Below, one piece after another: positions 39,486-62,894 of a stretch of 64,000 nt of DNA. The stretch's first letter is position 1, and each line of letters starts with the position of its first letter. The position numbers and the translations under genes were made by a program. Where the stretch lies: NCBI GenBank assembly GCA_009192285.1, contig WBVU01000017.1, forward strand, positions 806,001 to 870,000, written 5' to 3'. The DNA comes from Morchella semilibera. Its lineage: Eukaryota > Ascomycota > Pezizomycetes > Pezizales > Morchellaceae. The notes under the pieces were generated by a model. The model was not told where the DNA came from and did not search any database. It saw nothing but the letters and a program-made list of their open reading frames with translations.

Positions 39486-39578
39486 GCCCCGGTAGTGTAG
39501 TGGTTAGCACGCCTAGAAACTCAGCACGTAGAAGACAGAGCTGTGAGGGTAACTTGGGTTCAAATCCCAACTGAGGCA
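39486..39578 (+). repeat. tRNA-derived SINE-like unit, copy 1
   Basis: A 93-nt unit from GCCCCGG to GAGGCA. It has an A box TAGTGTAGTGG, a D-stem GTGT/GCAC, a T-arm TTGGG-TTCAAAT-CCCAA (B box) and a terminal A, followed by a T-run near 39582-39590 that would stop RNA polymerase III. The 5' and 3' ends pair except at position 4. The anticodon arm is about 20 nt too long and has no usable T33-anticodon loop, so this is not a normal tRNA. The 3' arm reads CTGAGGC here where most copies have TCGAGGC. Confidence 0.75.
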
Positions 39579-40950
39579 TTATTTTTTTTTATCATTTTCT
39601 GTAAATAGTCCCTTTACCGCCCAAGCGGGCAACGGGAGTGGGGCGTGTTTTTGACTTGTATACTACTATACTTACTAAGTACATGTACTTAGATCTCATA
39701 TCTTACTCCGCAGCGATTGCCCTGTTAGGCCCTGTTATGGTGGAGACTCGCTGCAAAAAGGCCATGATCGGACTTTCCTGCAGATAGGTCTACAGAAGCC
39801 GAGATGTAAAATGTTCAGCGGTCCTGCCCGCCCGCCGGCCTGCTCGTCCGCCCGCTTGCCTGTCCGCTTTCCTGTCAGCCTGCTTGTGGCTCGATCGGCT
39901 GGGGAGGGGTCTGAACTTAGTCTCCAAGCCACGGAAGAACAGAAGTACCGTTGACAAAGAGGGTTCATATGAGTCTTGCATTCGGGCGGTAGAGTGGCCT
40001 AGCTTATAGAGAGATTACCCTTATAGTAAGCTTTGGCTGTGTGTAAGTACAAGTAGTTGGCATTTGTTGCTGGTGCGGCAGGGCTAGGGGAAATACCACA
40101 GGGGTCTCTCCGGGCAGAGGCAATGCGTTCGTCCGCTGGGCCTCTATCAAGTCTCTATCTAGACTGGGACGGCCGGGGGTGGGTATGAGGTTGGAGCTCG
40201 ATTGTACTGCCCGGTGCGTTCTACTTTCGCGGGGGTTATGGTGGTCATGGACTATCACTCGCTCGCTATCCACTTCGTCTGCCCCCCGCCCCCCCGGGGG
40301 TCCCGTAATAGATGTATTGGGATCTGTTTGTTAGTGACAGATTTGTTTTAATTTGGCACTAGGTGATTGATAGACGAATTAAGGGATGATACTTGACTGA
40401 ACCCCCCCTACCCTGCTTGAGCGCTGCGCGGGGGTATTTACTTATGTAAGTACTTGCTACATGACGTAGTTGGGAAGGGCAGATGTGCCCTGTAAATAGA
40501 ACTGTTCCCCTACTGATGGGTACTTGAGTATTTTGGCTACACTGTAGGTACATACATGTCCACCAGGCAACATGTCCAGTTGGGGGGTCGGTCGGAGCGT
40601 GGGTTACAAAGATTCCCGCAGTACATCAAGTACTTGTCTGGTGGTCAATATATCCAGTGTGTCTTTCCAGACCGGGGGTGTGTGTGTATACGTATACCAA
40701 AACCCGCCTCTTTGTATATCTGTACCTACATTATCACAACCATGTTTACTACTACTACTTCTGCAACTACTACATGTACTTACTACAACTCCCACCACTT
40801 CTACCACCACCTTGGCTGCCAGCTCTAGCTCTGCCACCGTTTCGCCCGTCCGGCTCATCAACACCTTCTAGAGCAGCGTATCAGCTCCAAGTGCACAGAC
40901 ACCCTAAGCTCGGCTGCTCTCCCGGCGGGTACGAGCGCACCGCACCGCAT

Positions 40951-41777
40951 TTCCCTCCTACGTCTAAGCTACTTCTGCCCGTCCCGGCTCCTGATCATCA
41001 CGGTGCCCTGTAGGCCGCAGGAGGTCGTCAGTGGAAGGGTCGAGCGTGGGATCTCCACAATGGTGGCTTCTATGAGCTTGGGGTAGAGCTTGGAAAAGAT
41101 GGGCCTCACGAGGTCCACCGACTACCCCAAGTCTTCGTCTACTTGTGGCAATCGATGGCTCACCACGCAAAACTGTGGGACTGACGGAAACCGTCAACCG
41201 GCGGCGCAATATTGACCTACTTCCCACGCAAAATCGCCTAATAGGGTGGCTAACTGGACCAATTCTCGTTAAAGGTCCTGAGTATGTCTTCGTCTGTATT
41301 CAGGACTTGTGGCAATCTGTGGCTCGCCATACAAAAATGAGAGTCTAGCTGTCGGCGGTGCAAGAGAGACCCACTTGTCACGCAAAATTGTACAAGTGAT
41401 GGTGTATACTACTTATCGTTAAGATTGTGTCCATCACCACGCCGTTTCTTCGCCAAAAAGTTGTGGGGACCGGGAACAGGCAAAGACATCCGCGCCTCCC
41501 TACGCCTAAGCTACTCCTACCCTTCCCGGCTCCTGATCGTCGTGGTGCCCTGTAGGCCGCAGGGGGTCGTCAGTGGAAGGCTCGAGCGTGGCATCCGGCA
41601 GGATCTCCACAATGGTGGCTTCTATGAGCTTGGGGTAGAGCTTGAAAAAGATGGGCCTCACGAGGTCCACCGACTACCCTATGTCTTCGTCTATATTCAG
41701 GACTTGTGGCAATCGGTGGCTCACCACGCGAAACTGTGGGACTAACGGAAACCGTCAACCGGCGGCGCAATATTGAC
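40951..41777 (-). repeat. Tandemly duplicated segment, possible broken gene tail
   Basis: Sequence at 40951-41215 recurs at 41495-41777 with ~90% identity by eye, and a partial third copy lies at 41279-41395. On the minus strand both main copies can be read as VDLVRPIF(S/F)KLYPKLIEATI followed by DPSTDDxLRPTGHxDDQEPG and a stop. The frame is broken by a stop before VDLV and by an 11-base difference between copies. This might be a decayed protein-coding tail; I do not recognise it. The minus-strand frame at 41755-41982, with a Leu-rich possible membrane anchor, lies just upstream and could be its beginning. Confidence 0.45.
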
Positions 41778-42295
41778 GGTCGGCTGGATGTGGCTGCATG
41801 AGTTCCTCGTTGGGCAATTCCAGGTAGAGGAGGCGGGGAGCGTCTCGATTCGGGCCCACCAGAGTAGTGTGTAGAAGGAAGAGGCCGAGGAGGAGGCCGA
41901 GGAGGACGAGGGGCGTAGTTGGGAGGATGAGGCGGAGGCGGAGCGGCAGAGCGGAAGTGATGGAAGTTATCGCCCTTCGCATGAGATATTCTCTTTTTCC
42001 GTCCGTTGTTTGTATCGGCGCATGTGTCTTTGTTCTTTGTATCTGTGGTGATGGCCCACTCTCTATACAGTTTCTCTCTTTTTTGCCGATGTCTCTCTGT
42101 AAATAGATTCATTCCCAGCAGGTGATCTTAACTCCGTGCTTGCATAGGGCAGGGTGCAAGTGTTGGGTTGTGCCGGGCAGTTTTGTTGTTGACCTTAATC
42201 GCAATTGTTAAGTTTTTGTCGATAAGATGCAGATTCACATCTCTTCCCCAACAATGGGAACTTAATTGAAGTATGTGGTAGGGTGGTATGTGGGG

Positions 42296-42378
42296 GGGGG
42301 GTAGTCTCGTGCCCAGCCTGTGGTGATGCTCTGCACAACAAAACAATAGTCTGGGAACGAGACTAGGGGGGGGGGGGG
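42296..42378. repeat. Poly-G runs
   Basis: Two G homopolymers, near 42293-42301 and 42367-42378, lie in otherwise unassigned sequence. Similar long C/G runs recur across the window. Confidence 0.7.
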
Positions 42379-43424
42379 TATCGCCGCCATTTGTAAGGTT
42401 TCCACAAAGTCACGATCTTTTATTACGCGCAGGGTTCCGGGAGCGCTGATTAGGAGCCAAGGAAAGCAGTCAAAAAGGTGCAGATTGGGGAGGATTAATC
42501 GCGATCATAGACTATCACTCGCCCTCTGCCTGCCTGCGTGATTGATATGTACCCGGGGGTGCTGGAAGGTGATGCACCGTTTAACCAGATAGGTACTCAG
42601 AATTTCAATTTTTAAGACAACACAATGTTTGAAGAACATACATGTAGATATTTAGTCATATGTATGAGTCCCTAGAATAGATCTGCATGCTCTTTAATTT
42701 TTCCAGTCATTGATTTAGGCCTCGAGCCCGCAAAAGAACAACTCATGACGAGAGACAGTAATAAAAGGGGGGGGGGAAAGGGCTATCCGTACTAGCACTT
42801 ACCATAACTAGGGTCTCCAGCTTGTAACCTGCCATAGGTTTTCTCTGTTAGCTAGCTTGGTTGTTGATGAATATGGGCTATTTAATCGTTGCATCACTTT
42901 CCGGCACTCCCGGGTACATGTGGTATCCTTGTTTCTGCTCCCGACGGAGTTCAAGTAATTTCTAGCGGATCCTCCTGGGTATGTACATTAACGTTGTCTC
43001 TACTCACACTGTACTTGACTTTTTGAAACTGTGACTCAAGTCCTGCTATGTACCAGAAAGAAGAGAACTGTTGCGGCGCATTCTCCCGGCCGCTACATAC
43101 ATACCGCCGCTCTGCCCTGTGTGATCCCTATTTAGTACCCCACATATGTAACCGTGGCGGGCTATTCAAAGCCCCCAAGAGAAGACTTCCCAGTGGTAGG
43201 GTCAGGAGAGAATAAGATCCGTGACTTACTTCCTTTTGTGTAGGTAGTCATGTCAGGAACTGTATTATGTTTTATGTGCTTCGAGTCTCAATAGCGCGGG
43301 TATGCTGCACAACATGATGGCGGAGTGGTATAAAAACTAAATCACGGACACTTTTGCTGGGTGGCTAGCTGTACATAATAAACAAGGGGGGGGGGACGTG
43401 AAGCAGTAAAAAAACAAAAAATAA

Positions 43425-43517
43425 TGCCTCGATTGGGATTCGAACCCAAGTCTCCCTCACAGCTCTGTCTTCTACGTGCTGAGTTTCTAGGCGTGCTAAC
43501 CACTACACTACCGGGGC
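43425..43517 (-). repeat. tRNA-derived SINE-like unit, copy 2
   Basis: 93 nt, same structure as copy 1 on the opposite strand, with GGTTCGAATCC as B box and TTATTTTTTGTTTTTTT following it. Upstream on the unit's strand, the family's conserved leader CCCGTCCCGCCATTGCAGAC is present. Confidence 0.78.
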
Positions 43518-43985
43518 TTGTCTGCAATGGCGGGACGGGAGGTCTTGACCCGGAGCTTAAAGTTTAGGTTGCTAGCGCCAGTGCGGATGGAAGTTACCTG
43601 ATGCAGCTGGCAGCAAGATTCGATACAAAGACACCGCTGTCGGAAGCTACAGGCTACTTTTACCGCGCCCGATCGTATAGAAATATCAGTTTGGTTTGAG
43701 CCTGATTTCAGTCCGGTATCAGGCCTTTATGATTTTGTAGTGAAGATTATGGTACATGATAATGCCGATATAAAATTGATTTTATTCACTGAAAGATCTG
43801 GATGCGCAGGTAGCATTGGTGAATTTCACAAATAAAACTCTGGGTTGTTTCTCGGTTTAATATGTACATTTGTCTAACTATCTTCACTGCAGCCACCTGC
43901 CTGTCTGCCTACCTGCCTGCTTGATTCACTTCTTGATTCCGTGCTCCCAGGTACAGTGATTCCGTGCTTTTAGGTACGTTGCGGT

Positions 43986-44377
43986 TAGTGTTGGGCACGA
44001 GCCTGTTCGAGACGAGCCTGGCCTAAAGCTCGAGCTGGCCCGGATTGTGGGAAGAAAGGCTCGATATGTTCGGGCTCCGGGATATAGCTCGAGCTTAGGC
44101 TCGAGCTCTCTCAAAGATGTAGCTAAAGATAGTCATGTCGATATATATTTCATTTTCAGGTGATTCTCAGAGGATCTATCCTTGCTATATTTACAATTCC
44201 GCCAATACCAACCCATTCCTAATAGATCAGATCGCTCAAGCCCTCGCTCGAGCCTTAGCCCGAGCTTTTCCGATATCAGCTCGAGCTGACTTGGGCTCGT
44301 GGGGAGGAGAGCTCGAGGTGTCCGAGCCTAAAGCTCGAGCCTAAAGCTCGAACTAGCTCGGCTTGTGCCCAACACTA
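43986..44377. mobile_element. hAT-like MITE with perfect 8-bp target duplication
   Basis: The 392-bp element begins TAGTGTTGGGCACGAGCC and ends GGCTTGTGCCCAACACTA, near-perfect 18-bp terminal inverted repeats. The 8-bp direct repeat GTTGCGGT flanks it exactly (43978-43985 and 44378-44385). TIRs of this type with an 8-bp duplication are the signature of the hAT superfamily. The inside is rich in GCTCGAGC-like repeats and has no transposase, so it is non-autonomous. It sits beside a GCGGT microsatellite, which provided the target sequence. Confidence 0.88.
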
Positions 44378-44403
44378 GTTGCGGTGCGGTGCGGTGCGGT
44401 GCA
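44378..44403. repeat. GCGGT microsatellite
   Basis: About four to five GCGGT units directly follow the hAT-like element. The first overlaps the 8-bp target duplication. Confidence 0.8.
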
Positions 44404-44479
44404 GTACTTGATTTCGTGCTCTCAGGTACAGTTATTCCGTACTTCCAGGTACGGTGCGGTGCAGTGCTTGATTCCAGGC

Positions 44480-44862
44480 TCGTTTGGATTCACTACTGAA
44501 TTCACCGATTAGCTTATGTATGATTAATCAAGGTAGGGAGATAGGAAGGAGTGGTATAGAGGTGAAGATGTAGAGGTGAAGGTGTAGAGGTGAAGGTGTA
44601 GGGGAGATGAAGGTGTAGAGGGCGTAGATATCTCTAAGTCCACAACCCTAACCCTATCCTACTGAGAGTTCTTGATAATCTGATTTATTCGTGCATGCCA
44701 TTCTCCAGAAAGAGCCTGACCGAGCCTTATTCGGCCCTAATTAGGCGTCAAATATCAAGATTATCGCCTAAACACGCCGAAATATGGAATATCCTATAGA
44801 TAAAGCATAGGTATATCAAGCTCGTATCAGCTCTAGGTCTACAAATCAGGCTGGCGGTAATG
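44480..44862 (-). mobile_element. Truncated TIR element, family R, empty-site copy
   Basis: This is the reverse complement of 49627-49842 plus the sequence right of 51113. It includes the telomere-like AGGGTTAGGG, GTGGACTTAGAGATATC and the Lys/Leu-free spacer GCTCTTTCTGGAGAAT. The outer end at 44862 reads (inward) CATTACCGCC, a degenerate form of the CTTTACCGCC terminus, flanked by TA. Inner simple repeats of GGTGAAGGTGTAGA type continue to about 44520, and the other end is missing. It preserves the uninterrupted GAGATATCTC site that is split by another element at 49842/51113. Confidence 0.6.
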
Positions 44863-45346
44863 TAGGTAATCGTTACTCCGCGGGCCCTCTACCAACTCCA
44901 GCACAGCCATCAACGGACAAGAGGTACAGACTGTATGGTTATGAGAATGGGAAAAGGGTTTGGGCAGAATTTTGTTTTGACGTAGTTTTCTTTTAGTTTT
45001 TTTTTGGGGGGGGCTTGCCTGGTGAATGATGAGGCTCGAGACAGCGAGCGCACCGGGTTGGCTAGTATTGAGGAGGATCGAGTTTTCCTATGTTTTTCCT
45101 TGAGATGGCGGTGGAAGGAGGGGGCGTTCTGGGGATAAAATAGTGCGATATCGTCATAGCCTTAGGGCTAGATACGATTACTGATGTAAACAAAAAACAA
45201 AAAAAAACGGACAAGATGTATCCGCCACGCACGAGAGCGGTTTTGTAATGTGGAATGATATAAAAAACTAAATCACAGACACTTTTGCTGGGTGGCTGTA
45301 TATAATATAAACAAGGGACGTGAAGCAGTAAAAAAACAAAAAATAA

Positions 45347-45439
45347 TGCCTCGATTGGGATTCGAACCCAAGTCTCCCTCACAGCTCTGTCTTCTACGTG
45401 CTGAGTTTCTAGGCGTGCTAACCACTACACTACCGGGGC
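45347..45439 (-). repeat. tRNA-derived SINE-like unit, copy 3
   Basis: 93 nt and nearly identical to copy 2, including the downstream TTATTTTTTGTTTTTTT. The sequence further out (ACTGCTTCACGTCCC) is also shared with copy 2. So the duplicated unit is longer than the tRNA-like core. Confidence 0.78.
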
Positions 45440-45896
45440 TTGTCTGCAATGGCGGGACGGGAGGTCTTAACCCGGAGCTTAAAGTTTAAACTGCTAGCGC
45501 CAGTGCGGACGGGGTTGACCTGAGCTGAGGTTAATGTTGACCCCCCCCTTCCCGATGATGCAGCCGGCAGCAGGATTCGATACCGCAATTGGATCTCGCA
45601 TATGTACTTGGCCCCGTGTGCATTGCAGTTCGTGATGATTCGTCTCTGTCCATGATGAGGCCGGTATAGCCCTTGGTAGCACAGTTTTGGCCGCTCAGTT
45701 GAGCATGTACTAGGTTATTACTTAAGTATGTTCTCAGACGATGCCTTTTGGGATCGATAGCTAAGTACTTACGTTCTCAGACGGTGCCTTTTGGGATAGT
45801 TAAGTACATTGTACTTATGTACCCAGAGTGTCGGAAAGTGATGCACATTCAGTGGTTCCATAGCCACACGGATATTAATTTGTACACAGGTAAATA

Positions 45897-46067: not shown

Positions 46068-46234
46068 TATGGGTGTGCGGATGCTCATTGTCAAGTATAT
46101 ACTTGGTGCTTAGATATGGTAGAGAGGCTCTGCACGGCTGCGTTGTATTGTAATAAAGTACATATTTGGGTGTTGTCTAGTCAAAATGTGCATCACTTCC
46201 TCTAGAGGACTGCCTTAAATGACTAAATCAATTA

Positions 46235-47189
46235 CTTTAGCGCCAGTTCGGATATTTCTATAGGTATGATTTTGAGCACTAGTACTGCGGCATGGTTTTA
46301 AAAAGACTTAATTTCGAAAAGAACATTAATTGAACCCAAAAGGGTGAAAAAGATGATGTTTGGTGCCCAATTTAGCATAATTAAGGGTCTTTTGGAAGAG
46401 AATCATATACGAAGGAAAAGAGTTGTCAAAAACTGTAAGCAAATCAGGGTTAGGGCTGGGACTTAGAGATATCACGTCCCTTCTACATCTCCACACCTCC
46501 ATCTCCATACCTCCATCTCCACACCTCCACCTCTACGTCCCTACATACCTCTACACCCTCGCCTCTACAGCTTCATCTCTACGGCTTCATCTCCACACCT
46601 TCATTTCTACAACCCCCCCCCCCCCAGTTCCGAGTCCCCGCCCCGACTAATCATACATGAGCTAATCCATCGAGCAGTGAATCCAAGCAGCGAATCAAGC
46701 AGCGAATCAAGCAGCGAATCAAGCAGGGAATCAAGCAGCAAATATCCAAGCAGCGAATCAAGCAGCGAATCAAGCAGCGAATCAAGCAGCGAATCAAGCA
46801 AGCAGCGAATCAAGCAGATATGGCAGGCAGGTACGGCAGGCAGGAATGGCAAGTAGGCAGGCGGGTAGGCAGGCAGGCAGGTGAATAGCGAAGACTTGTA
46901 GTATATAATCGGGAAGTAAATAAAAATTTAATCTGTGAAATTTACCTATGCAGAATACATGTAAGTGTGAATACTGGCCTACCTGCGTATCGGAGTTTTT
47001 CAGCGAATAAAAAAAGTCTTATAAAGCTATTATCATGTATTAAAATCATTTACTAATATAAGGATTAATCGAAACATAGGTCAATAAGAGCCTATAGAAA
47101 ACAAAATATTAAAAATCAAAAAAAGTCCTATAATAGAAATATTAATTGCTTAATATAGGTTTATATTATTATGGGAACTGGCGCTAAAG
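46235..47189. mobile_element. TIR element family A, copy 1 (955 bp)
   Basis: The left end is CTTTAGCGCCAGTTC and the right end is GAACTGGCGCTAAAG, a perfect 15-bp inverted terminus with TA on both sides. Inside are, in order: a telomere-like AGGGTTAGGG block, a C/T-rich CTCCATCTCCACAC satellite, a C-run, a 12-bp GAATCAAGCAGC tandem array (about 46680-46815), a GGCAGGCA run and an AT-rich tail. There is no transposase. A nearly full second copy is at 53929-54758. Confidence 0.82.
46680..46815. repeat. GAATCAAGCAGC minisatellite
   Basis: About ten 12-bp units with minor variants, inside family A copy 1. The minus-strand reading LLDSLLDSLLDS is a by-product of the repeat. Confidence 0.88.
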
Positions 47190-47416
47190 TACTTGAGCCA
47201 AATAACTTCGTCGTTTTTCACTAACTGACATACACTTACTAAACGACTCCACTAAATGACTCTCGTTCCACTAACACTTGAGTTTGGCACCATATTCTAT
47301 ATAAATGACTTCATTTGCCAAGTGACTAGAAACTTGAAAAAACTGCCGCCAAGAAACTAAATATTTAGATTCAGAGTCTTGGCCAAGAGCCCCAACTATT
47401 TCTAACTCAACAGCTA

Positions 47417-47745
47417 CATTAGCGCCAGTCCAGATATTCCTATAAGTATTATTTTAACCACTAATACTACGGCATGGTTTTGAAAAGCCTTAATTTTGAA
47501 AACACCATTAATTAAACCCAAAAGGGTGAAGAAGATGATGCTTGGTGCCAATTTAAACCCGTTAGGACATAATTAAGGGTCTTTTGGAGAGCATCATACA
47601 TACGAAGGAAAAGAGTTGTCAAAAACAATAAGCAATTCAGGGTTAGGGCTGGGACTTGGAGATATCACGTCCTTCCTTCCTTACATCTCCATCTCCACAC
47701 CTCCATCTCCATCCCCACACCTCTATCTCCACGCCTCCAAGTATT
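47417..47745. mobile_element. TIR element family A, truncated copy
   Basis: Begins CATTAGCGCCAGTCC after TA and follows family A through the telomere-like block and the CTCCATCTCCACAC satellite, then stops matching near 47745. The right end is lost. Confidence 0.7.
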
Positions 47746-48263: not shown

Positions 48264-48352
48264 TGCCTCGAGAACCCAGGTTTCCCTCACAGCTCTGTCT
48301 TCTACGTGCTGTGCTGAGTTTCTGGGCGTGGTGGCCACTACACTACCGGGGC
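48264..48352 (-). repeat. tRNA-derived SINE-like unit, damaged copy 4
   Basis: Like the other copies, but the T-arm loop and part of its stem are deleted (GCCTCGAGAACCC instead of GCCTCGATTGGGATTCGAAC), so the B box is lost. A 5-bp GTGCT duplication also lies in the middle. It is presumably transcriptionally dead. Confidence 0.75.
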
Positions 48353-48531: not shown

Positions 48532-48624
48532 TGCCTCAGTTGGGATTTGAACCCAAGTCTCCCTCACAGCTCTGTCTTCTACGTGCTGAGTTTCTAGGCG
48601 TGCTAACCACTACACTACCGGGGC
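48532..48624 (-). repeat. tRNA-derived SINE-like unit, copy 5
   Basis: 93 nt with intact A and B boxes (GGTTCAAATCC). It lies only 180 bp from the damaged copy 4 in the same orientation, with matching leader sequence (CCCGTCCCGCCATTGC-like, AAGCTCCGGGTTAA). The 3' arm reads CTGAGGC, as in copy 1. Confidence 0.77.
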
Positions 48625-49077: not shown

Positions 49078-49842
49078 TAGTTGATATACTAGAACTAAGA
49101 ACTATACCAATAAACCGAGAAGTTCAAGTAAAGTAATCAGTAAAGTAACCAATAAAGTCGTCAATAAAGTCGTCAATAGACGACATTACAGAGGCCTCGA
49201 CACGTTTATATATGCATCGACCGATGCATTTATGCACCATTCTAGTATGGGGAATGTATCAAGTGATGCATTTCCGCGCTGGTAGAGAGAAGCCACAAGG
49301 TAATCGTCACTCCGCGGGCCCCCTACCCACTCCAGCACGGACAAGATGTATCCGCCATGCACGAGAGCGGTTTCGTAATCAATGTGCAGAGCCTAGAAGG
49401 ATCGTGAACACATACATGCAGCGAAAGCCTAGTGCTATACCGATACCTCCTCTACTTACGCATAAGTGCAATCCCTCTATATATGACGGTAACACTTTCG
49501 GCCCCTTTTTGCTCGGCCTTGGTATTAGCACCCTCATATTTATACAAGGGCCGCAATCTCGATCTCTACGGGTGAAGTCGTCAATCGCAGCTTGGCCTTT
49601 TGGGCTAATAATTATAATACATACATACATTACCGTCCGAACGTAAGCCTGATCTGGAGACCTAGAGCTTATGGGGGCTTGATATATGCCTTATATACCT
49701 GATTGGGCGATAATCTTGATATTTGGTGGCTAATTAGGGCTGAAGCTCGATCAGGCTCTTTCTGGAGAATAGCATGCGCGAATAAAATCAGATTATCAAA
49801 AACTCTCAGCAGGATAGGGTTAGGGTTGTGGACTTAGAGATA

Positions 49843-51112
49843 CTTTACCGCCCGTCCGCATATCTGTATGAGACTAAATAAGGGCTCGATAGCATATACA
49901 AGCCAGGTATAACCCTCATATCAAAATAGGGCTTCATTGAGCCTGGTTGGAGATTATACTGATATGTGGCACATAATTATGGCCGAATAGGGCTCAATTA
50001 ATAGTCTTTGGGAGAGATACGTGAATATAGGAATAGGGATTAGGAAAGTCCGTAAGCTTTTGAGGGTTAGGGTTAGGACTTAGCAGATATCAAACACGCA
50101 CGCCTTCCATCTCTGCGCCTCCACCTCCACACCTTCACCTCCACCTCTTCACCTCTACCTCTACACCTTCATCTTCATTTCTACGGCTTCATCTCTACGG
50201 CTTCTCCTCTACGGCTTTATCATATCATCTGCACCCCCCCCCCCCACTTTATTGATATCGTGGTGATAGTCTCCTTCTTATCCTAGTCCTACCAAATCAT
50301 CGTCATCATCCAAACATGAGCTAATCAGTGAATTAGGCAGCAAATCCGGCGAATCCGGCGAATCCAGCACTAAGCTCACCGAATTCAGCGAAGTTGAGCA
50401 TCTACTACTAATCGAGCAATGAATCAAGCAGCGAATCAAGAATCTATACCTTCACCTCTCCACCTTCATCTTCACCCCCTCCTATTTCAAGGATGACTAA
50501 ATCAGTGAAGTAGGCACCTACATAATCCAGCGAATCTAGCGAATCCAGCACCCAATCAAGCAGCATCCAACCCAGCAGCGAATCAATTAGGCATTGCAGG
50601 CAGGTAAGCAGGCAGGCACGGCATGCAGGTATGGCAGGCAGGCAGGCAGGTAAGCAGGTACATCAGCAAACTCAACTTGTGACTGGAGTCTCCCAACAGT
50701 CTCCCGGGTCTCCTGAGAGTCTCCTGAGACCCCCGGATATCTTTTGAGTCTCCTGAGGCTCAGGAGACATCAGGAGACAGATGAAGTCTTGCTGATGTAG
50801 GAAAGGTTGCTAGTAGAGGGTAAATGTACATATTAAATAGAGAAACAATCGAGAGTTTTATTTGTGAAATCCACCTATGCTAGAAGGAGTGTGAATACTG
50901 GCCTACCTGCGCATCTAGATCTTTCACCGATTAAAATAGCCCTTTTATAGGCATTATCACATATACTAAAGCTGAATATATATAACTCTCACCGAAACCA
51001 TAGCATTTTAAGGACGTTATAGAAAATACCAGAATTAATATCAAATAATGGTTAATTCAGGCGTATGTAAGCATGCTATAATCCTCATACAGATATGCGG
51101 ACGGGCGGTAGT
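49843..51112. mobile_element. TIR element family C (1270 bp), inserted in family R
   Basis: The ends are inverted repeats of ~30 bp differing at only two positions. The left starts CTTTACCGCCCGTCCGCAT and the right ends ATGCGGACGGGCGGTAGTG. TA is duplicated on both sides (49841-49842 and 51113-51114). The inside repeats the family plan: AGGGTTAGGGTTAGGAC near 50075, CTCCACC satellites, a C-run near 50236, GAATCAAGCAGC units, GGCAGGCA runs and a GTCTCC palindrome at 50659-50799. There is no transposase gene. Confidence 0.82.
50659..50799. repeat. GTCTCC-rich foldback inside family C
   Basis: Begins TACATCAGCAA and ends TTGCTGATGTA (11-bp inverted termini). Between them is a run of GTCTCC/GGAGAC hexamers in both orientations, able to fold on itself. 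It is possibly a still smaller element inserted into the family C element, making a third nesting level. Confidence 0.6.
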
Positions 51113-51439
51113 GTATATCTCTACTGCGCTCTCTACTGCTCTCTGCTACACCTTCATCTCCTCTACACCTTCACCCCTACACCTCCACCTCTACACCCCA
51201 TCTCTACGGCTTCATCTCTACGGCTTCATCGAGTCTACGGCTTCATCCACGCCCTCCCCTCTAATCAATCATCGTCATCGTTAGGATACAAGCTAATCAG
51301 TGAATTAGGCATTGTCCAATCCAGCGAATCCAGCACCCAATTCTTCATCTCCTCTACACCTTCATCTACGCCCTCCTCCCAATCAATTATCATCATCATT
51401 AGGGATATGAGCTAATCGGTGAATTAGGCACCCAACCCA

Positions 51440-51570
51440 GTGAATCCAGCACCCAATCCAGCGAACCCAGCGAACCCAGCACCCAATCCAGCGAACCCAG
51501 CGAACCCAGCACCCAATCCAGCGAACCCAGCGAACCCAGCACCCAATCCAATGAATCCAATGAACCCAGC
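51440..51570. repeat. 30-bp tandem repeat (CCAGCGAACCCAG type)
   Basis: Three near-identical 30-bp units built from CACCCAATCCAGCGAACCCAG-like sequence, with degenerate flanking units. The minus-strand reading GAGFAGFAGL is open through the array because the period is a multiple of three. I regard this as a satellite and not a gene. Confidence 0.82.
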
Positions 51571-52173
51571 GAATCCAAACGAGCGCGCCGGCGGAATCAA
51601 GCACTGTACCGTACTGTAGCGTACCATCTAGAATATGGAATGAAGCAGGCAAGCAGGCAAGCAGGCAAGCCGCTGTAGTAATAATTTTTAGATATAGTAT
51701 TAAATCGTGAGATAAATAGGAATTTAATCTGTGAAACTTGCCTATGTAGAACAAGTGTGGATACTGGCCTACCTGCGCATTTGGGTTTTTCGGTGAGTAG
51801 AATCAGTATTATATAGGACTTCTCGCATGATATCATGCGGTGGGAATATCAGACTGAGCCAAAAGTTGGCTTCAACGAGGCATGATAAAAAATATCATAT
51901 GCAACGCCAAATCAGCTTTAACTAAACCCTATATCAAGCTGATAATAATATGTGGACCGGCGGTAAAGTAAGTAGCCTAAGCAAGCAGCAAGTAGTAGTA
52001 GCTACTAGTATTTCTGATTGACTCTATGGTTAGTACTATTAGCTACAAACTTACTAGGAGCAACGAATATACCAGGTAACTCGGGCCCAGGCTGCGAATA
52101 TATTTGACGGTTTTATATATCCCTCCATGGATAACGGTACCAGGCTCCGGTACCGAGCGTACGTATCGTTATA

Positions 52174-52354: not shown

Positions 52355-52488
52355 TAGCATAGAGAAGCCTTCGCTGTATCTATATATTGCCCTTACATGG
52401 CGGTTATGTAGCATCCTTATAGGTGGTGGCACCCCTATAACGAGATCGATAAAAGAGAGGCACGAAACAGTAAAAAAACAAAAAATAA

Positions 52489-52581
52489 TGCCTCGATTGG
52501 GATTCGAACCCGAGTCTCCCTCACAGCTCTGTCTTCTACGTGCTGAGTTTCTAGGCGTGTTAACCACTACACTACCGGGGC
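52489..52581 (-). repeat. tRNA-derived SINE-like unit, copy 6
   Basis: 93 nt with B box GGTTCGAATCC intact. It is followed on its strand by TTATTTTTTGTTTTTTT as in copies 2 and 3. The leader is shortened to GGGGCTTGTCTGGACGGGA (top-strand reading), unlike the other copies. Confidence 0.77.
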
Positions 52582-53926
52582 TTGTCTGGACGGGAACTTC
52601 TGGGCCTGATGTACGCGGCCCTAAAGTTTAAACTGCTAGCGCCAGTGACCAGCCAGCAACAACAAGACACCACGCAAAGGCGCCGCTGCTAGAGGCTACA
52701 TGAAATAACCCCTACTCTCCACCCGCTCCAGCACAGCCATCAATACAAGTATCAATCAATCAATCAATCAGTATCCGAGCGGTGTCACCACCGAGTGATA
52801 CCCCATGACCCGCACTAGCCATCCCCTGTACTTATCTGCTCCGGCAAGAATTACATGTACGGGGGGGTAGACTAGGGGTAGGGCGTTGGGGCGTGGGTTT
52901 AATTTGTAAGGCCCGCTATATACTGGTGCTGGTGTTGTCTGGGCAGGTACTTCCTGCATGTATAGCTTAGCTAAGTAGGGCTGGCTGGGCTCTGGAGCAC
53001 GACCCGCCCAGGGTTGGGACAACAACATGGCGCGCCGGGAGACTCAAGTCCAGCTGTACCGGCGTTGTATGATATGTGCAACACCACCCAAGGCGGGGGA
53101 GTGTTCATCGTGGGCGTGTACTGTACCATCCTGAGCTTTGATCATGTTTGGCTCTAGCTAGCTGGAGTGCAGAAAAAGTATTATAAGTACCCCCCTCTCC
53201 TTTGGCGCGCGGGGGGACCGATTCCCTGTACATACGTAGTGGGGGTTTGTAGTTGTAGCGCTAGCCTCGAGCCTGCAACAATAAGAAAAGGCGGATTCAC
53301 CGGCGGTGACACATACAGTGTCCAGGGCACTGGGTACATGGCCGGTCGGAAACACTGCCAGGTCTGTACCGGTTTGGGTTTGCGCCGCTACATAGGCCGG
53401 GGGCGCCTGTGACCCGACCAACACAACACAACACAACACAAGATGTCCTTGTGTATGTAGGGCGGGCTTGTGGATTGTATTGTAGCCCGGGAACCCCGTG
53501 GACTAGCTCAAGTAGGGGCTGTTATAGGGCGACAGATTGGCTCGACCTAAGTACATAGTAGTATATCCCAAGCACAACCGCACCCCACGGGTTACCACTC
53601 GGTGTATATGCATCTGGACGTACGCGGACAGAAGACCAAGCGTGGGGCCTATATCACGGCCCGGAAAGTGTTGCTCTACATATACGTCCCAGCTAATTCC
53701 CCAACCACCGGGGATGCAATCCACAATCCTGCCGCTCCGGAGGGAGTATGGTAGGCGTGTATGAGGATAGACAGTGCACATGTGAACTAGTCCCGCATTG
53801 CTTCAGGCCTACCATTCCGCGGCCGTTTTCGTGGTCTGGCAAGACGCACGCCCCACGCCCCCGCTGTGTCTGAATGTCCATTACCGGATTTGGGGGTGGT
53901 AGAGCTTGAGTGTAGATGCCCATAGT
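52582..53926. other. Intergenic, no gene seen
   Basis: Unassigned sequence with a CAAT microsatellite (52752-52770), an ACAAC run (53421-53441) and a reverse copy of the CGAGTGATACCCCATGACC motif at 52791-52811. The open frames at 53158-53439 and 53503-53781 have no recognised domain. Confidence 0.4.
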
Positions 53927-53928
53927 TA

Positions 53929-54758
53929 CTTTAGCGCCAGTTCGGATATTTCTATAAGTATTATTTTGAGCACTAATACTGCGGCGTGGTTTTAAAAGTA
54001 CTTGAATTCGAAAAGACCATTAATTGAACCCAAAAGGGTGAAAAAGATGATGTTTGGTGCCCAATTTAGCATAATTAAGGGTCTTTTGGAAGAGAATCAC
54101 ATACGAAGGAAAAGAGTTGTCAAAAACTGTAAGCAAATCAGGGTTAGGGCTGGGACTTGGAGATATCACGTCCTTCCTTCCTCTCCACACATTCTTCCTT
54201 CCTCTCTACACCTCCATCTCCACACCTCCATCTCCACACCTCTATTTCTACACCCCCCCCCAGCTCTCTGCCCCTATTAATCATACATGAGCTAATCCGT
54301 CGAGCAGTGAATCCAACCAGCGAATCAAGCAGCGAATCAAGGAGCGAATCAAGCAGCAAATATCCAAGCAGCAAATATCCAAGCAGCGAATCAAGCAGCG
54401 AATCAAGCAGATATGGCAGGTAGGCACGGTAGGCAGGCAGGCAGGCAGGTGAACGGCTGCAGAAAGTACTTATAGATAATTAATCAGGGAGTAGATAAAA
54501 ATTTAATCTGTGAAATTTACCTGTGCAGAATAAGCGTGAATACTGGCCTACCTGCGTATCGGGGTTTTTCAGCGAATAAAAAAATTCTTATAAAGCTATT
54601 ATCATGTATTAAAATCATTTACTAATATAAGGATTAATCGGAACATAGGTCAATAAGAGCCTATAGAAAAAAGAATATGAAAAATCAAAAAAAACCCTAT
54701 AATAGGAATATTAATGGCTTAATATAGGTTTATATTATTATGGGAACTGGCGCTAATG
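53929..54758. mobile_element. TIR element family A, copy 3 (830 bp)
   Basis: Begins CTTTAGCGCCAGTTCGG and ends GAACTGGCGCTAATG, with TA on both sides. The inside is collinear with 46235-47189 but has fewer satellite units. The two copies stay similar through the AT-rich tail, which argues for relatively recent spread. The right end lies only 85 bp from the TRM732 stop codon. Confidence 0.82.
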
Positions 54759-54842
54759 TACTTTATAGAGAGCGAGTGACACCCCATGACCCACCGAACC
54801 ACCACGGCCTCTAAAACTACTTTTTATTTTCTATCTATCTAT

Positions 54843-57800
54843 CTATCTACTATCTACACCACCCTCCACAGCCGCCCTCAACCCCTCCACAACCCCCTCA
54901 CACCCCTCCACGCCCTCCAACGCCTCCACCCCCGCCCGCACCCCCCCCACCACCCTCCCCCACAACACCTCCGCAACAGCCCCCCTCCGCTTCCACCCCG
55001 CCACAACCCCCACCCCCTCCACAACCCTCACCACCCACTCAAACACCTCCTCCCCCAGCCCCCCCCGGACCGCCCGCGGCAGCGCCTCCACCGCATCACA
55101 AACCCACGCCACAAACCCCTCCTCCTCCGCCGCCGCAGAGCACGACGCAAGAACACGCGCCCACCGCCGCGCCTCCACAACACAGTCAACATAGAGGTTC
55201 TGCCTCTCGCGGGCAAACAGCGCAGCGGGGGTGCGGTCGACGACGGCGGTGAGGCGGTGCCGCGCGGCGCCCGCCAGCGCGGCAGAGGGCGCCATGGCGG
55301 CCAGAAGCAAATCTCCCGCGCGCAGCGCCGTGGACTGGCGGCTGGGGAGGAGGGCGCAGACTGTGCGGGCTGCGGCGGCGCGCAGGTCTGCGTCGTCGTC
55401 GTTGAGGAGGTCGTAGAGTGACAGTAGGGCGGGGGCGTGGGTCTCGTTGCGCGGGGAGAGCGACGGCGAGAGGGCGTGGAGGGCGTGGAGCGCGGATGCG
55501 CGGGTCGGGTGTGGCTGGTCCTCGTGGGTGGCGGCGGAGACGAGCGGGGTTAGGGCGGGGAGGGTGTCGGGGTTGTGTGCGGCGAGGAGGCCGAGGGTGG
55601 AGAGGGCGGCGGATTGTTGGCTGGGTGGGCTGCTGGCGGCCGTGGCGAGGGCGTAGACGGTGGTCCAGTGGGTGGGGGTGGTGCTGGTGGTGCCGTACCG
55701 GTATAGGAGGCCCAGTGCTGCCGTGCGCAGCTGGTGCCATTGGTGCTGGGTGACGAGGTGCCACAGGGCGTCGTCGAGGTCTGGGGTTGGCGGTAGGGTT
55801 TGCGGCGCGGCGAGCAGCTGCTCGGCGGTCGAGAGCGCGGCTTCTTCGTCGCTGCTGCGCAGGAGGGCGGTCAGGGAGGCGGTGCGCGGGGGCGTCGGGT
55901 CTCGAAGCGCCCGCGTGACCATGAATGTCGTTAGGTGGGTCTTGAAGAGCGTTCGGCCGGCGATGCCGGCGCTGGAGATCGCTGCGAGGGCTTCGGGGGC
56001 GGTGGCGGCGTAGGTGCTGAGCTTTGGGTGCAGTGCTGTATAGATGTACATATATCAATTAGTTAGCAATGTATGTATAGTAGAGGGGGGGGTCAATGAT
56101 CGCCCTGCAGGTCAATGATCGAGTCACGTACCATCACTCGGCGGCGCCACCACCGCAAGGTCCGTGACGATCTGGAGAAACACGGCCCTGATGACGGCGC
56201 ATTCGGACCTGACAACAAGGGCCTCAAACGCAGTCTCCAGGGCCGCCCAAACGGCCGCCACGTCCTCTCCCTTCCTCTTCTTCCTGTTACTCTCCAGGAG
56301 CGCCCGCACGGCACACAGCCGGCCATGGACGCCGTTCACGCGGACGCCGGGGGCAGCAGCCTCACGCAGCAGCTGCACGGCAACACCCGCGCCCCCGCCG
56401 CAAAGACTGGCATACGCCCTGGCCGCCATCTCACGCACCTTCCACACACGCGCCTCCATGGCCGCACGCACACACCCCACGAACTCGCCCTCCTCCCCCT
56501 CGCCGGTGCACTCCAGCCGCGCCAGCAGCGACAGCGCCGGATACACCATCTCCGTGGCAGCAGCATCGAGCGCCGCCACCCTCTCGCGCAGCCCCCGCAG
56601 AAGCACCTCCCGCACGCCTGGGTACCGCGCAAAGAACCCCGCTGCGTCCTGCCCACGCACGCCGACGATCCGGTTGAGCAGCGCCGTGAACAGCATGATG
56701 CCGCAGTTGCGCAGCGCCCATATATGTGCGCCGAAGCAGTCGACGGCGAGGGCCAGCGCGGCGCCGACGTGGCGCGCGGCGCCAGGCGAGAGGCGCGCGT
56801 CCGTGAAGAGGTGTTTGAGGCAGTTGATGGCGTGGACCTGCGGGAGGTCTGTCTTCTCGCTCTCGTCCCCGTCCGGGTCCGGGGGGGGCATGGCGGCCAC
56901 GGCGAAGAGGTGGGCGAACGTTTTGTGGAGCTGCGGGCGGGCCGGGTCTGGTTCGGGGGCGAGCGTGCCCGCGAGGAGGAGGGGGAGGCCGGCGGAGCGG
57001 CGGGTGATTCTGGAGGCGGAGGTGGTGACGAGGGGGAGGTTCTGGTCGAGCCAGTGGGCTGGGAGCGGGTGCAGGGCGGGGTCGGTGGACGTGTAGCAGG
57101 TGTGGCAGAGGGTTGTGAAGGAGGGGGAGACGGCGGAGAAGGCGCCGCGGTGGCGGATGTGCGTGAGTTGGGAGAGGAGGAGGGAGCCGGCTTTGGGGAA
57201 GTCGGCGGCGTGTAGAGGGGAGGTGGCGGGGGTTGTGGGGTCGTAGGGCGCGCGGGAGAGGACGGTTGCGAGGAGGGAGCTGGGGTGCGGTTAGTCGGTG
57301 GGGTCAATGATCGGATTGGGGGGAGTGATAATTCATGATGCGGGACAAACCTTGACTCCTTCACCGCCCTCCACGAGTAGCTCATGACGGTCTGACTATT
57401 GAGCCCCTCGTCATCGTCCTCCTCGTCATCGTCTTCGTCCACCCCAGCGGGCATACACCCCTCGGGACTATCCACACAGAGGACGTCCCTGGTGATCTCC
57501 CAGATCTCTTCACACGCCCTCACGACCCTGACCACGACCTCCCTCCCCGCGCCACCCCACGCATCCCCCCTCTCCAGCACCAACCTCAGCCCCGCCAGCA
57601 ACCCATGCACCGGTTGCCGCCTCACCGCCGCCTGGAAGTCGCACCTAGCAACCCCCAGCCGCTCCTCGAGCATATCCAGCACCTCCGCGACCACCCCCGC
57701 CTCACCCCCGCCCCACAGCAGCAGCACAACCCTAGCAACCCCGTCCGCGTCCCTCTCCCGCCCAGACGCATCCATCCTCGCCACCCCCGCACTCAGCAGG

Positions 57801-59478
57801 CGCCGGTCCACCGCCCCCGCCGCAAACCCAAGCACCTCCGCGGCCATCGCGCGGACGTCGTCAAACGGATTAAACACCGCCTCGCGGAGCACGCCCTGCA
57901 TCCCGGGGCCCAAGACGCGCACCCTCCCCGCCCACGCGGCAGGCCAGTTCAGGACACGCTTCGCGTCCGCCGGGACGGCAAGGGTGGTGTCGACCCCGCT
58001 GCGGACTAGCACCGTCAGCATCTTCAGCGCCGTCGTGGTGCGCTGGTAGGAGCTCCCTGGGTGCAGCTGCGTCTGCAGCTCTTGCACGAACCATACGATG
58101 AAGGCCCTGATTGCCTCGATCTGTGCCGCGAGACGCTCTGTCCCGCTTAGGGCGCCCGCTGGGTGCTGGAGGTGGTTCTGGTGCTGCTTGGAGAGGTGGT
58201 AGGAGGAGGCTGCGAGGCGCTCGAGGAGGCTGCGCAGGGACTGGACGGTCTGGTCGCGTACCTCTGCGTCGGCCTCGGTGTGGAGTGCTGGTAGGGCGGC
58301 GCGGAGCGCGGCCAGAGACGAGGCTGGGAGAGGGTGCGTGGGGGCGGGGGAGTGCGTGAGGAGGGTCAGGGCCGCGAGACGGACGTGCGGATGTGGGTGG
58401 AAGAGTAATGGGGCGGTGAAGGTTGATGGGACGGTGATAGTGGTTGTGGACGATTCTACGAGGGGGATCAGCACGTGTGTAGAGGATAGAGGTTTCTCAT
58501 TAGATATGGAATATATACTCTTTCCTACAGTAATGCCTGTGCCCTCCTCCGTGTCCTCCTCTTCGGAAACATACCCAAGGTCCTTCCCGACCTTGAGACA
58601 GCAGAGGAGACTCATGAGCTCCTCGCCGTCCTCCTCCTCCTCGGCACCCCCGGTACACCTTGCCAGTCCCAACGCGTCCACAAACAGGCCGAACCCCACT
58701 CTCGAGGCCTTAAACAACCCCGGCAGCACATACGTCTGCACATTGGCCCTGAGGCCCTCACAGCGCATAGCCATGCCCACGGGCACACTCCACAAGCGCA
58801 CCCAGGCCTCCTCCTCCCCCAGCATCTCCGCCCTCCTAGCCCCCAACAGGGTGACCACAGCCTTCCCAATCGCCGGCGCCAGCGTCCGGTCCCCCATCCC
58901 CGCCAGGAGCGCCTCCACGACGCCTTCACCACCCGCAAGCACGTCGGCCGCAGCGACAACACGCTTGCGCAGCACCGTCTCGAGGACGTAGTAGTGCACC
59001 TTTGACGACCTCCCCGCGGCGAGGAGGCGCAGCGCGAACGGGCCCGGGTCCGGGTGCGTGCCGAGGACGTTTCCGAAGAGGTCCTTGAGCGCCTTTGAGA
59101 GCGCGGACTGCGCGCTGTCGAAGTGGGTTGTTACCACGGCGGCGAGGGGGGCCCAGGGCGGCGGTGTGGCCGGGAGAGGGAGGCGCTCCGGGTGCTGCCG
59201 TGAGCGGAGGAGGTACGTTGATAGGGCGTCGCAGGCGAGGGCGCGGTGCGGCTGTGTGAGTGTCGGGGTGAGCGCGGTCTGTAGGAGTGCGGGGAAGAGG
59301 GCGGGCGAGGTGCGGGGACTGTGGTGGGAAAAAGGTTGTTAGCTGGTTGTATATAGACAGAGAGGAGGGAAATGATCGGGTACCCGTCTTTCTGCTTGAT
59401 GAGGGATGCGCGGGCATTTCTGAGGACGTCCTCGCCCAGGGGGACTGTAAATACTGGTTCTGTGTCTGTTTCTGGCAT
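54843..59478 (-). CDS. TRM732: THADA/Trm732-family protein (DUF2428), tRNA 2'-O-methylation partner
   Basis: In yeast Trm732 works with the methyltransferase Trm7 to methylate nucleotide 32 of certain tRNAs; animal relatives are called THADA. The four-exon model is 59384-59478, 57351-59318, 56132-57279 and 54843-56035. Introns of 65, 71 and 96 bp all have GT..AG ends and matching phases, giving 1467 residues of mostly alpha-helical (armadillo/HEAT-like) protein. Diagnostic DUF2428 blocks are SQTVMSYSWRAVKES at about 673-687, crossing the second intron into SSLLATVLSRAP, then ITRRSAGLPLLL, and LPQVHAINCLKHLF followed by GAHIWALRNCGIMLFTALLNR at about 825-870. The start used is MPETDTEP; an upstream in-frame ATG at 59598 would add an unlikely tail. 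The coding sequence is markedly GC-rich compared with genes left of 37 kb. Family assignment is strong; the symbol follows the yeast orthologue. Confidence 0.88.
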
Positions 59479-59993
59479 CAATTCTGTGTGTTTTGCAATA
59501 TCGGTATATATGAAATTGATGATGTATAGACAGCGGGGTCGATATTCAATTTTTGGTGTCTTCTCTTCCTCTCTGGGGAATCTCAACCGGGTAATCAAAT
59601 CAAATCAATCGCTTGAGCCTCATTTCATTTCTTGGCGTTGTCCCGGGTGAAGGGATTTTTAATTATTCTTTTTTTTTATTTTTTTATTTTTTATTTTCTG
59701 AAGGGAAATTCTGTTAACGACAACAACAACGTCGGTCATCATCGATCACCAATCGTCCCTTCATCAATCAGTCAATCATCATCTCCCAATCACTATCGAT
59801 ATAAACACCAATATCAATATCAATACCAATATAATATCATAAGTCATCAGTCATCGGGATATCCGGATACCTGACTGTCGTTTCCCATCGCCACATTTAT
59901 AATCACCACGGCCCCCGTCCATCAATCACAACTATCACCACCTCACAAAAGAACATCTCTCCCACCAATAATCAATCCCTCTGACCCCTCGCA
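59479..59993. promoter_or_regulatory. Shared divergent promoter, TRM732 / TIM23
   Basis: The 515 bp between two divergent start codons must contain both promoters and leaders. It includes a T-rich block (about 59660-59700), CAATCA/CAATAT-type short repeats (59760-59835) and a C-rich leader before TIM23. No TATA box or named factor site can be assigned with confidence. Confidence 0.5.
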
Positions 59994-60683: not shown

Positions 60684-61640
60684 GGCGGTGGTAATTGCAG
60701 GGGGGAGGGGGGGTAGGGGCCCATATTGTGGATATTTTCTTTTCTTTTTTTCTTTTCTCCCTCCTCTTTTTTTTTTTCTTTTTTTGTTTTAGGGCAGGAT
60801 AGCTAGCCGTAGTTGTAGCTTTCGTCGTGTGTGGGCAGTAGCACCACACCGGGTATAAAAAAAAATAGTCCATCTCCTCTTATTTCTCTTTCTCTCTTTT
60901 GTCTTTTTCTTAGTACCTAGACAGGCGTTTTGATGTAGCATGTAGGTGGGGCGGGTGGTTATGTATGTATTGTATGTATGAGGGGCGGGGGAGTAAATAA
61001 ATAAATAGGATAAGATACATGTACCCAGCAGTAGACTGTGCTGGAATGGTGTTGTAGGTTGTGGTGGGTGGTGAGGTCCAAGATCATGGGACATCACTCG
61101 TGCGGTATAAACCAGGCCTACATACATAACAAAAAGTAGAGACCGACCAACGTCCGCAGATGCCAAGAATAGTAACAAGGGCCCGACCCGACCAACCACT
61201 TACACTTATGAGTGGATGTACATACACTTTGTAGCCGTGGGGAGATGCCAAAAGGCCAGCCGTAGTAGAGTTAGGCGTATTGGGGATTCAACTTACTACG
61301 CACGAGTAGTGCTATAGACGGCTATCTACATGTACATACGTACATTTACACCACCTCCACAACCCCCCACCCCGCCCCTCTGGCTACCTCCTATAAGGTT
61401 AAACCTCGCGGGGCGCCCGGTACTAGTCCGGGGGGGGGGGGTTGTTGTGTTGTGTTACCGGTGCGGGCCAGCGGGCGGAGGAGGCTTCTATGCAAGTGTG
61501 CCAGTGGTCCAGTCTTCGCCAGCAAGCCGCCAGAAGGGAGGGCCGTACATTATTACAGCAGCTTGTACCAGAGGAATAAAAAGGGGGCTCCGGTATTACA
61601 TACATACATACATATATGTAAGTAAGGCTGTAGCGATTTA
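60684..61640. other. Intergenic, TIM23 3' side
   Basis: A T-rich stretch (60735-60790) probably belongs to the TIM23 3' UTR. Then comes unassigned sequence with ATGT/TACA simple repeats, a copy of the ATCATGGGACATCACTCG motif at 61083-61100 and a G-run at 61430-61441. No gene is recognised. Confidence 0.4.
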
Positions 61641-61688
61641 AACTTTAGACATCGGGCTTAACATTTCCCGTCCCGCCGTTACAGACAA

Positions 61689-61781
61689 GCCCCGGTAGTG
61701 TAGTGGTTAGCACGCCTAGAAACTCAGCACGTAGAAGACAGAGCTGTGAGGGAGACTTGGGTTCAAATCCCAATCGAGGCA
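61689..61781 (+). repeat. tRNA-derived SINE-like unit, copy 7
   Basis: 93 nt with intact A box TAGTGTAGTGG and B box GGTTCAAATCC, followed by TTATTTTTTGTTTTTTTT. It forms part of the tandem segmental duplication with copy 8. Confidence 0.78.
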
Positions 61782-62178
61782 TTATTTTTTGTTTTTTTTA
61801 TCCACGCCCGCCTGGTAGGTATGTACTGGCATAGCACAGCACAGCCTGGGTTGGTGCATTATTATGGGGGGTCTATGGGAACCTCTGCTACAAGCACACG
61901 GTACATACATACATGTAAGTACTGCTACGGACCTTCAAAACCCATTCATTCTTTCCTTCCCGCCCCGACTCGACTCGACTCCCGCACCAACAACACAAAA
62001 AGGTTAGTCTGCTGGGGAGACCTCTCCATACAACAGCAATCACTATCCCGCGGCCCTTCTTTGCTGTATTGGCCTGGCTGCAGATTGTTATCAATAGATA
62101 AGTACCCTTCTAGTACGTAGAATTGATACGGGGTCAGGTCCATCCGTGCTTATGTACGGCGGGACTATGGGGTTACTA

Positions 62179-62350
62179 CAGTATGAAAAAATGGGGGTGA
62201 AATCACTACCATAGGACTACGGAATTTAATGACAAATACCGAATTAAACCGGCATTAGAGGAAGTGTACTGTACAAATACCGTATTCTTACCGCATTTCT
62301 AGCGTATCAACGGGAATACCGTAGTGATCCCACCCCTCTTTTTGGTACTG
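62179..62350. mobile_element. MITE, TACAGTA/TACTGTA family, copy 3
   Basis: The 172-bp unit from CAGTATGAAAAAATGGGGG to CCCTCTTTTTGGTACTG has TA on both sides (62177-62178 and 62351-62352). It is nearly collinear with the 45897-46067 copy, including ATCACTACCATAGGACTACG. Confidence 0.8.
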
Positions 62351-62801
62351 TAGTGAGGAGCGGCCTCCGGCCGCATAGGTACATGTATGTAATCGTCAGT
62401 TCGAGAAACCACCGACACTGAAGGATCCAGAAAACTTACAGCCCTGTTCAATGTAATGATGTGGGGTAAATAGCTCCGCACGTAGTCGGGGCCACCTGCC
62501 GCTGCACGGCATGCTGGGCCCTCCTTGCTCGCGTGAGGTTGTAGTTTTGGAAGAGAAGAAATATTGATCTCGGCCAGAGGGTTATTATATAGTGATTGGG
62601 GTTTGCCAGTGTATGCCGTCTCCCTTAACACACCCGATTCTTTGTCTACTGACAGCTGTAGCCCGCCAGACCACAGAAATCTGGGGCAGCTACCCATCCA
62701 GTTGAAACCTTTCGTGGTGACAGAGGTGCCTGACTATTCTATTTAGATGGATGTACCTATGGGTCGGCACACATCATTTCCCGTCCCGCCATTGCAGACA
62801 A

Positions 62802-62894
62802 GCCCCGGTAGTGTAGTGGTTAACACGCCTAGAAACTCAGCACGTAGAAGACAGAGCTGTGAGGGAAGCTTGGGTTCGAATCCCAATCGAGGCA
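62802..62894 (+). repeat. tRNA-derived SINE-like unit, copy 8
   Basis: 93 nt with B box GGTTCGAATCC and a downstream T-run of about twelve near 62899-62911. The D-arm reads TTAACAC instead of TTAGCAC, as in copy 6. Confidence 0.78.

Follow-up and report, generated by a model that had tools for sequence, protein, structure and literature searches.

A window of 64,000 nucleotides (nt) from the ascomycete Morchella semilibera (contig C14, positions 806001-870000; the assembly comprises 56.8 Mb in 23 contigs, labelled C1-C23) carries eight copies of a short tRNA-like unit with an abnormally large anticodon region. We consider it probable that these units belong to an RNA polymerase III (Pol III) gene family for a tRNA-folded, non-decoding RNA, the enlarged anticodon loop of which would be its working part. 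The proposal is founded on sequence features: A and B boxes, a CAA start, a close T-run, a compensated cloverleaf and an enlarged anticodon domain. An earlier sequence-only reading of the window had offered three options, a tRNA-derived short interspersed nuclear element (SINE), an unusual intron-bearing tRNA and a novel small RNA family. The last fits best, and it is strengthened by a second subfamily (type II) having the same frame as the window units (type I) and another loop. The family is known here from this one genome, through sequence comparison within its assembly.

According to our proposal, Pol III would transcribe the unit from about the CAA, and the RNA would fold as a tRNA-like L and be stabilised like tRNA. 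RNase P, RNase Z and CCA addition could act on it, and the exposed loop may bind a protein or another RNA. Copies would arise mostly by local and segmental duplication, as those of tRNA genes do.

Eight units in the window

All eight units reported by the sequence-only reading were recovered at the same positions and on the same strands. Seven are 93 nt long: 39486..39578, 61689..61781 and 62802..62894 on the plus strand, and 43425..43517, 45347..45439, 48532..48624 and 52489..52581 on the minus strand, the units at 43425 and 45347 being identical. The eighth, 48264..48352 on the minus strand, is 89 nt long and broken: its B box and half of its T-arm are deleted and its loop carries an insertion. 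The Rfam tRNA model (RF00005) matches the seven intact units at 38-44 bits, above its gathering score of 29, and the broken one falls below that score. At gathering score, tRNA was the sole Rfam family with a match in the window.

The A box TAGTGTAGTGG, previously credited to seven copies, is kept and in fact exact in all eight; ten window matches occur at up to one mismatch, against a shuffle mean of 0.81 and above all 100 shuffles. Seven units, as had been noted, keep the B box GGTTCRAATCC without a mismatch. It has eight window matches against a shuffle mean of 2.10, a number reached by none of 100 shuffles, and the extra match, at 10859, falls outside the units. The downstream T-run had been slightly undercounted at seven, since all eight copies have at least four T 4-6 nt downstream (39582-39590 for the first copy). 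A mismatch at acceptor position 4 proved general (4-69 is C.A in 8/8). The T-arm, described as perfect, is so in six copies; the unit at 52489 has C.A at 50-64, and that at 48264 has the deletion. Conservation of the leader holds in part: CCCGTCCCGCC is exact in four copies, one base off in three and absent in the copy at 52489. The anticodon region is indeed abnormal, the distance from D-stem to T-stem being 43 nt in the 93-nt units, some 20 above that of tRNA, and no arm with U33 fits.

Two subfamilies in one genome

Genome-wide BLAST gave 25 places, of which 24 are type I and the 25th (L025; individual loci are given as L numbers) is type II. With both types, the whole genome contains about 40 copies, not thousands. 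Type I copies are distributed over C14 (eight), C17 (five), C20 (one plus three), C22 (two), C23 (one plus one) and C15, C19 and C11 (one each); eighteen of the 24 lie in five local groups of two to eight and six are single. A 27-nt type I core, searched with up to three mismatches, has 24 places: 22 are type I units, and C9 and C10 contain a remnant each; the reversed control has none. Two copies in C22 escape this search owing to an insertion. Matches at parallel positions suggest that C9/C10, C12/C13 and C21/C22 are partly duplicate haplotype contigs.

A search with the L025 locus yielded about 15 type II units, L025 included; this number excludes the C21 twins of an array in C22 and one truncated copy. 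They are found in C19 (two pairs and a single), C22 (a five-copy array, mirrored by its twin in C21, and one further unit), C17 (two), C16 and C4, where the truncated copy also lies. Type II shares with type I the tRNA frame, the Pol III layout and mostly the CAA, and differs in its loop, which is A-rich and about 27-28 nt long. Well-kept type II units begin with GC..GG, preceded by ACAA or CAA, and have TAGTGYAG, the T-arm and a loop near ACCAAAAACATTAAAAATTATAAAATC; their anticodon stem has four to five pairs, e.g. CCCT/AGGG or CTCTC/GAGAG. Searched with up to two mismatches, the initial 19 nt of the type II core match 20 places; known type II copies account for 17 of these, and the reversed control gave three matches. 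Typing did not extend to L097, to three more units in C22, to the truncated copy in C4 or to the C21 twins.

A loose pattern (CAAGC, A box and a distant GTTCRA) matched 37 places, 23 of type I and 14 of type II with C21 twins counted; no third kind of unit was present among these 37, and the reversed control gave none. The exact type I core had no match in viral and prokaryotic sequence collections. We did not find the family described among the matches listed by literature searches, a weak negative, as most subscription literature lay outside them.

Some type II units stand in close tandem, namely those of L025 (1328-1420 and 1509-1602) and of L091 (1398 and 1515). The upstream L025 unit has no run of four T within 40 nt, and the pair might therefore form one transcript.

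Pol III gene signals

The internal A and B boxes of the window copies correspond to the layout of type 2 Pol III genes. In each of the 24 type I copies, the T-run begins 3-6 nt past the end of the unit. In type II, at least four T occur within 12 nt in ten of 11 rows, often as a shorter run; four rows have exactly TTTT there and nothing longer. An internal run of four T was seen in none of the 25 units that make up type I and L025, nor in the 27 typed rows.

Across most of the family, CAA occupies positions -3 to -1 (in the unit at 61689, as ACAA immediately 5' of position 1, 61685..61688, plus strand). It is present in 21/21 distinct type I and 12/14 type II stretches, as opposed to one of 27 real tRNA genes; these 27 were taken from 30 tRNA loci, L028, L041 and L042 being omitted as neighbours or apparent twins. 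TATA-like words (at least six of seven positions) between -36 and -18 were found in 6/14 type II stretches (none in the control interval -60 to -42) and in 9/27 tRNA genes (one in the control). Part of type I also has an upstream element. The pattern GCTAGCAGTTTAAACTTTA lies on the minus strand at 45480..45498, ahead of the unit at 45347, and at 52622..52640, ahead of that at 52489. The element, with the pattern GCTAG..TTAAACTTTA, has eight matches in the genome, all just upstream of type I copies, compared to two for the reversed pattern. The exact upstream pattern accompanies eight of the 24 type I copies.

Pairing in the tRNA frame

Acceptor, D-arm and T-arm all pair in type I. Pairing statistics were obtained from 25 rows parsed by hand, 16 of the 24 type I and nine of the 11 typed type II. 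Omitted from type I were repeats of kept rows (L003, L006, L007, L008, L012), L004, which differs from L002 in the loop alone, and the broken L011 and L024; from type II, L096 and L098, whose D- or T-arm is ambiguous. The typed row L095 is apparently one G shorter than its locus, at a position outside the paired sites. In these rows, excluding broken copies, five to seven of seven acceptor pairs and four or five of five T-stem pairs form. In total 456 of 525 cells are paired, where shuffles give 437 +/- 3.6, and double-change cells number 25 versus 8.6; none of 2000 shuffles reaches either value. Double changes across both types occur at 1-72, 3-70, 4-69, 5-68, 13-22 and 49-65.

Since such shuffles ignore relatedness, whole acceptor strands were also swapped between copies. 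A strand forms 6.38 of 7 pairs with its own partner and fewer (5.48) with a swapped one (0/20000 permutations, 16 distinct pairs), a result which is possibly still inflated by relatedness. For type II the values are 6.40 and 5.74 (48/20000 permutations, n=10). Judged from the sequences, two-sided changes preserve the pairing of acceptor, D-arm and T-arm. In the anticodon domain of type I, about three pairs of an outer stem are kept, with 29-41 being U.G, C-G or U-A. The inner CAGC/GCUG is able to pair and invariant among the copies, and therefore has no covariation support.

A possible intron in the anticodon region

The extra length equals that of a small intron, and many tRNA genes of the same genome have short introns. 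The units might thus be ordinary decoding tRNAs carrying an intron of about 20 nt, a reading close to one of the original options, and if base 33 is ignored, an intron at 37/38 leaves three to five of five anticodon-stem pairs. With U33 required, the same intron position leaves no pairs in 26 of 27 rows (L095 gives three), and contiguous 17-nt arms with U33 have at most three pairs in 26 rows and four in L023. No 5-pair anticodon arm with U33 was obtained in the 27 rows by any layout tried.

ARAGORN made no tRNA call in the window with default settings, and with introns allowed it called none of the eight copies. Outside the window, the latter search took L004-L008, L012, L016 and L017 for tRNA-Leu(CAG) genes interrupted by an intron of 2 nt, and L025 for a tRNA-Phe gene. 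These anticodon placements, for type I and L025 alike, are not supported by the exhaustive check for U33 arms.

Genuine introns of this genome behave differently. Among the matches listed, ten Asp genes have nine different introns (mean identity 0.44) and eight Gly genes have eight (mean identity 0.63), isotypes being assigned by reading anticodons. In type I the pattern is the reverse of an intron's, in which the insert varies and the exons stay constant: among eight representatives the loop is 0.943 identical, the acceptor 0.816 and the T-arm 0.968. The type I insert is thus unlike a tRNA intron, because no U33 arm fits and the Asp and Gly introns vary by copy. For type II the argument from intron variation is weak, since conservation of the loop (0.653) does not exceed that of the other parts. 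For Asp, Gly, His, Trp, Lys, Gln, Thr and others, tRNA genes that look normal are also present. Failing on U33, on loop geometry and on the behaviour of genuine introns, a decoding tRNA with an intron is highly improbable. An origin from tRNA-His, or a replacement of it, was rejected too, as the genome has two tRNA-His genes (anticodon as read) that look normal and contain short introns.

As a side observation, among the matches listed, the tRNA introns are very short, and copies of the same isoacceptor carry different ones. L064 and L074 resemble the tRNA-Lys of L070 and have 6-nt inserts beside the anticodon.

Possible mobile element or pseudogene

The same units could be a low-copy tRNA-derived SINE, or a mobile element of another kind, dispersed through reverse transcription that a long interspersed nuclear element (LINE) assists. 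They have a tRNA head with A and B boxes, and type I copies are spread over eight contigs. Fungal SINEs can have very low copy number, an example being the tRNA-related AfuSINE2 of Aspergillus fumigatus, which these units resemble in all three respects (excerpt of PMC5063351). Against this, the unit has neither a tRNA-unrelated body nor a tail: it stops at the discriminator base, and the T-run follows a few bases later. Other tRNA-headed families of the genome do carry a body and a common ATAAGTCTTTTGT end. Preservation of pairing by compensating changes also speaks against the SINE option.

Target-site duplications gave no better support. In 90-nt flanks of 35 copies, direct repeats are not above control (mean longest shared word 6.17 versus 6.23), the comparison being of exact words, which worn duplications would escape. 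Flanks are common to most compared copies: 17 of 20 pairs score higher in flank homology, upstream, downstream or both, than any of 100 shuffles, some of them narrowly (e.g. L001/L010, L018/L020 upstream, L024/L002). The other three pairs (L015/L016, L023/L018, L025/L001) have no flank homology, and some independent movement is possible. In 14 of 18 pairs examined, no flank segment is better kept than the unit, and in L016/L017, L019/L022, L003/L013 and L024/L002 one short upstream segment is; flank percentages are unreliable for distant pairs, whose alignments are gap-rich. With body, tail and target-site duplications lacking, the tRNA-derived SINE that the sequence-only reading had leaned to is unlikely.

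The SINE-like families just mentioned have degenerate tRNA heads and are represented by L076 (C2:584878), L077 (C1:139030), L078 (C3:1265090) and L079-L082, with dozens of copies among the matches listed. The end ATAAGTCTTTTGT is common to the seven loci L076-L082 and the body GCCCAACATGGTAGCGACGCTC to five (L076-L078, L081, L082), CCCAAG-type repeats replacing the body in L079 and L080. Neither body nor end was found in the window.

Several results weigh against a functional Pol III family. Covariation is weak in type I alone (6.33 with own versus 6.07 with swapped acceptor strands, n=6, not permuted), and further pair types are unexceptional (171/2000 shuffles). The C.A at 4-69 is fixed in nine of 16 typed type I rows. 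Window units were folded in seven of the eight cases (the one at 45347 being identical to that at 43425), and type I proved no stabler than shuffles, with z between 0.40 and 1.14 in six and -0.75 in the broken unit; the minimum-energy fold is cloverleaf-like, by eye, in four of the seven. Of four folded type II units, L096 alone combines a marked z (-3.34) with a fold resembling a cloverleaf. The type II loop is less conserved than the other parts, an arm is damaged in at least five of the roughly 15 type II units (L025b, L096, L097, L098, L099), and TATA-like words are not raised in type I (1/21, with four in the control interval).

Fixed C.A mismatches and unremarkable single folds would suit amplified, functionless tRNA pseudogenes carried in repeat-rich regions. 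So would the broken copies, which include the unit at 48264, L011 with its small deletions, the remnants in C9 and C10, the truncated C4 copy and the damaged type II units, and so would the many almost identical type I copies, possibly of recent origin. In opposition to this stand the 14 of 18 pairs in which the unit is kept at least as well as all flank segments, the acceptors pairing best with their own partner, and the start and terminator signals retained in most copies. We regard pseudogenes as quite unlikely and prefer the Pol III gene family for a non-decoding RNA.

Comparison with known RNAs

To our knowledge, known tRNA-derived Pol III small RNAs (e.g. 4.5SI) are mostly animal and do not keep the full cloverleaf. 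Vault RNAs have A and B boxes and, as far as we know, lack a tRNA-like acceptor with a discriminator base. The likenesses that follow draw on excerpts of the papers cited. Vault RNAs are similar to the Morchella units as Pol III RNAs of 84-141 nt (PMC8287541). The rodent 4.5SI RNA is a tRNA-derived Pol III RNA that resembles the B2 SINE and the function of which is there called unknown (PMC10137851). Its tRNA derivation, A and B boxes, upstream box, few neighbouring genes and T terminator (PMC10137851) make a tRNA-derived Pol III RNA of this kind the most similar working analogy; in contrast to 4.5SI, the Morchella units keep the cloverleaf frame and differ in the anticodon loop.

Among fungi, milR-4 of Neurospora is likewise a Pol III transcript with tRNA parts, dependent on RNase Z (PMC3547838). 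There, predicted tRNA-Ala genes adjoin the small RNA, whereas the conserved stretch of Morchella lies inside the tRNA-like unit. The mascRNA is a tRNA-like small RNA as well, but comes from the long RNA MALAT1 and has no gene family of its own (PMC8128908).

A more far-reaching idea, which we put forward tentatively and hold to be rather doubtful, is that the tRNA frame serves as an exchangeable scaffold, presenting two unrelated, separately kept loops of about 28 nt at the tip of the L to a protein or RNA partner, as a fungal class of non-decoding RNAs. A fungal family with its tRNA body kept by compensating changes and its loop varying would show which part of tRNA is a reusable scaffold, and two natural loop versions in one genome would offer a handle for testing the role of the loop.

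Neighbouring features

Three other roles or associations were rejected. As a primer for long terminal repeat (LTR) retrotransposons, the main type I 3' end with CCA has no genome site at zero or one mismatch. At two mismatches, this end has seven sites beyond 17 genes of the family itself, and the reversed control has five. LTR-borne tRNA-like sequence, as in Helenus and Ajax (excerpt of PMC10886601), was considered as a candidate only. Antisense action on three SINE-like families or the neighbouring repeat was not supported, 0/24 loop-target combinations standing out (the best was reached by 6/50 shuffles).

The third candidate, a companion repeat linked to the units in C14 and C17, is actually a dispersed repeat. 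It is about 1 kb long with short minisatellites, and one 311-bp part of it has at least 41 places genome-wide. On these two contigs it alternates with the units; its positions in the window are 43657-44860, 46230-47194, 47412-47737, 49646-51970 and 53926-54763.

Between the units at 52489 and 61689 lies a Trm732/THADA-like gene (56336-59335, minus strand). Trm732 is a partner for methylation of anticodon-loop position 32; the vicinity is probably a coincidence. Four of seven scanned open reading frames of the window had matches, to Velvet, NUDE_C, MARCHF6_C and Trm732/THADA, a set in keeping with a filamentous fungus; the Velvet-domain match (9049-10134, minus strand) is partial and covers profile positions 133-202 of 237.

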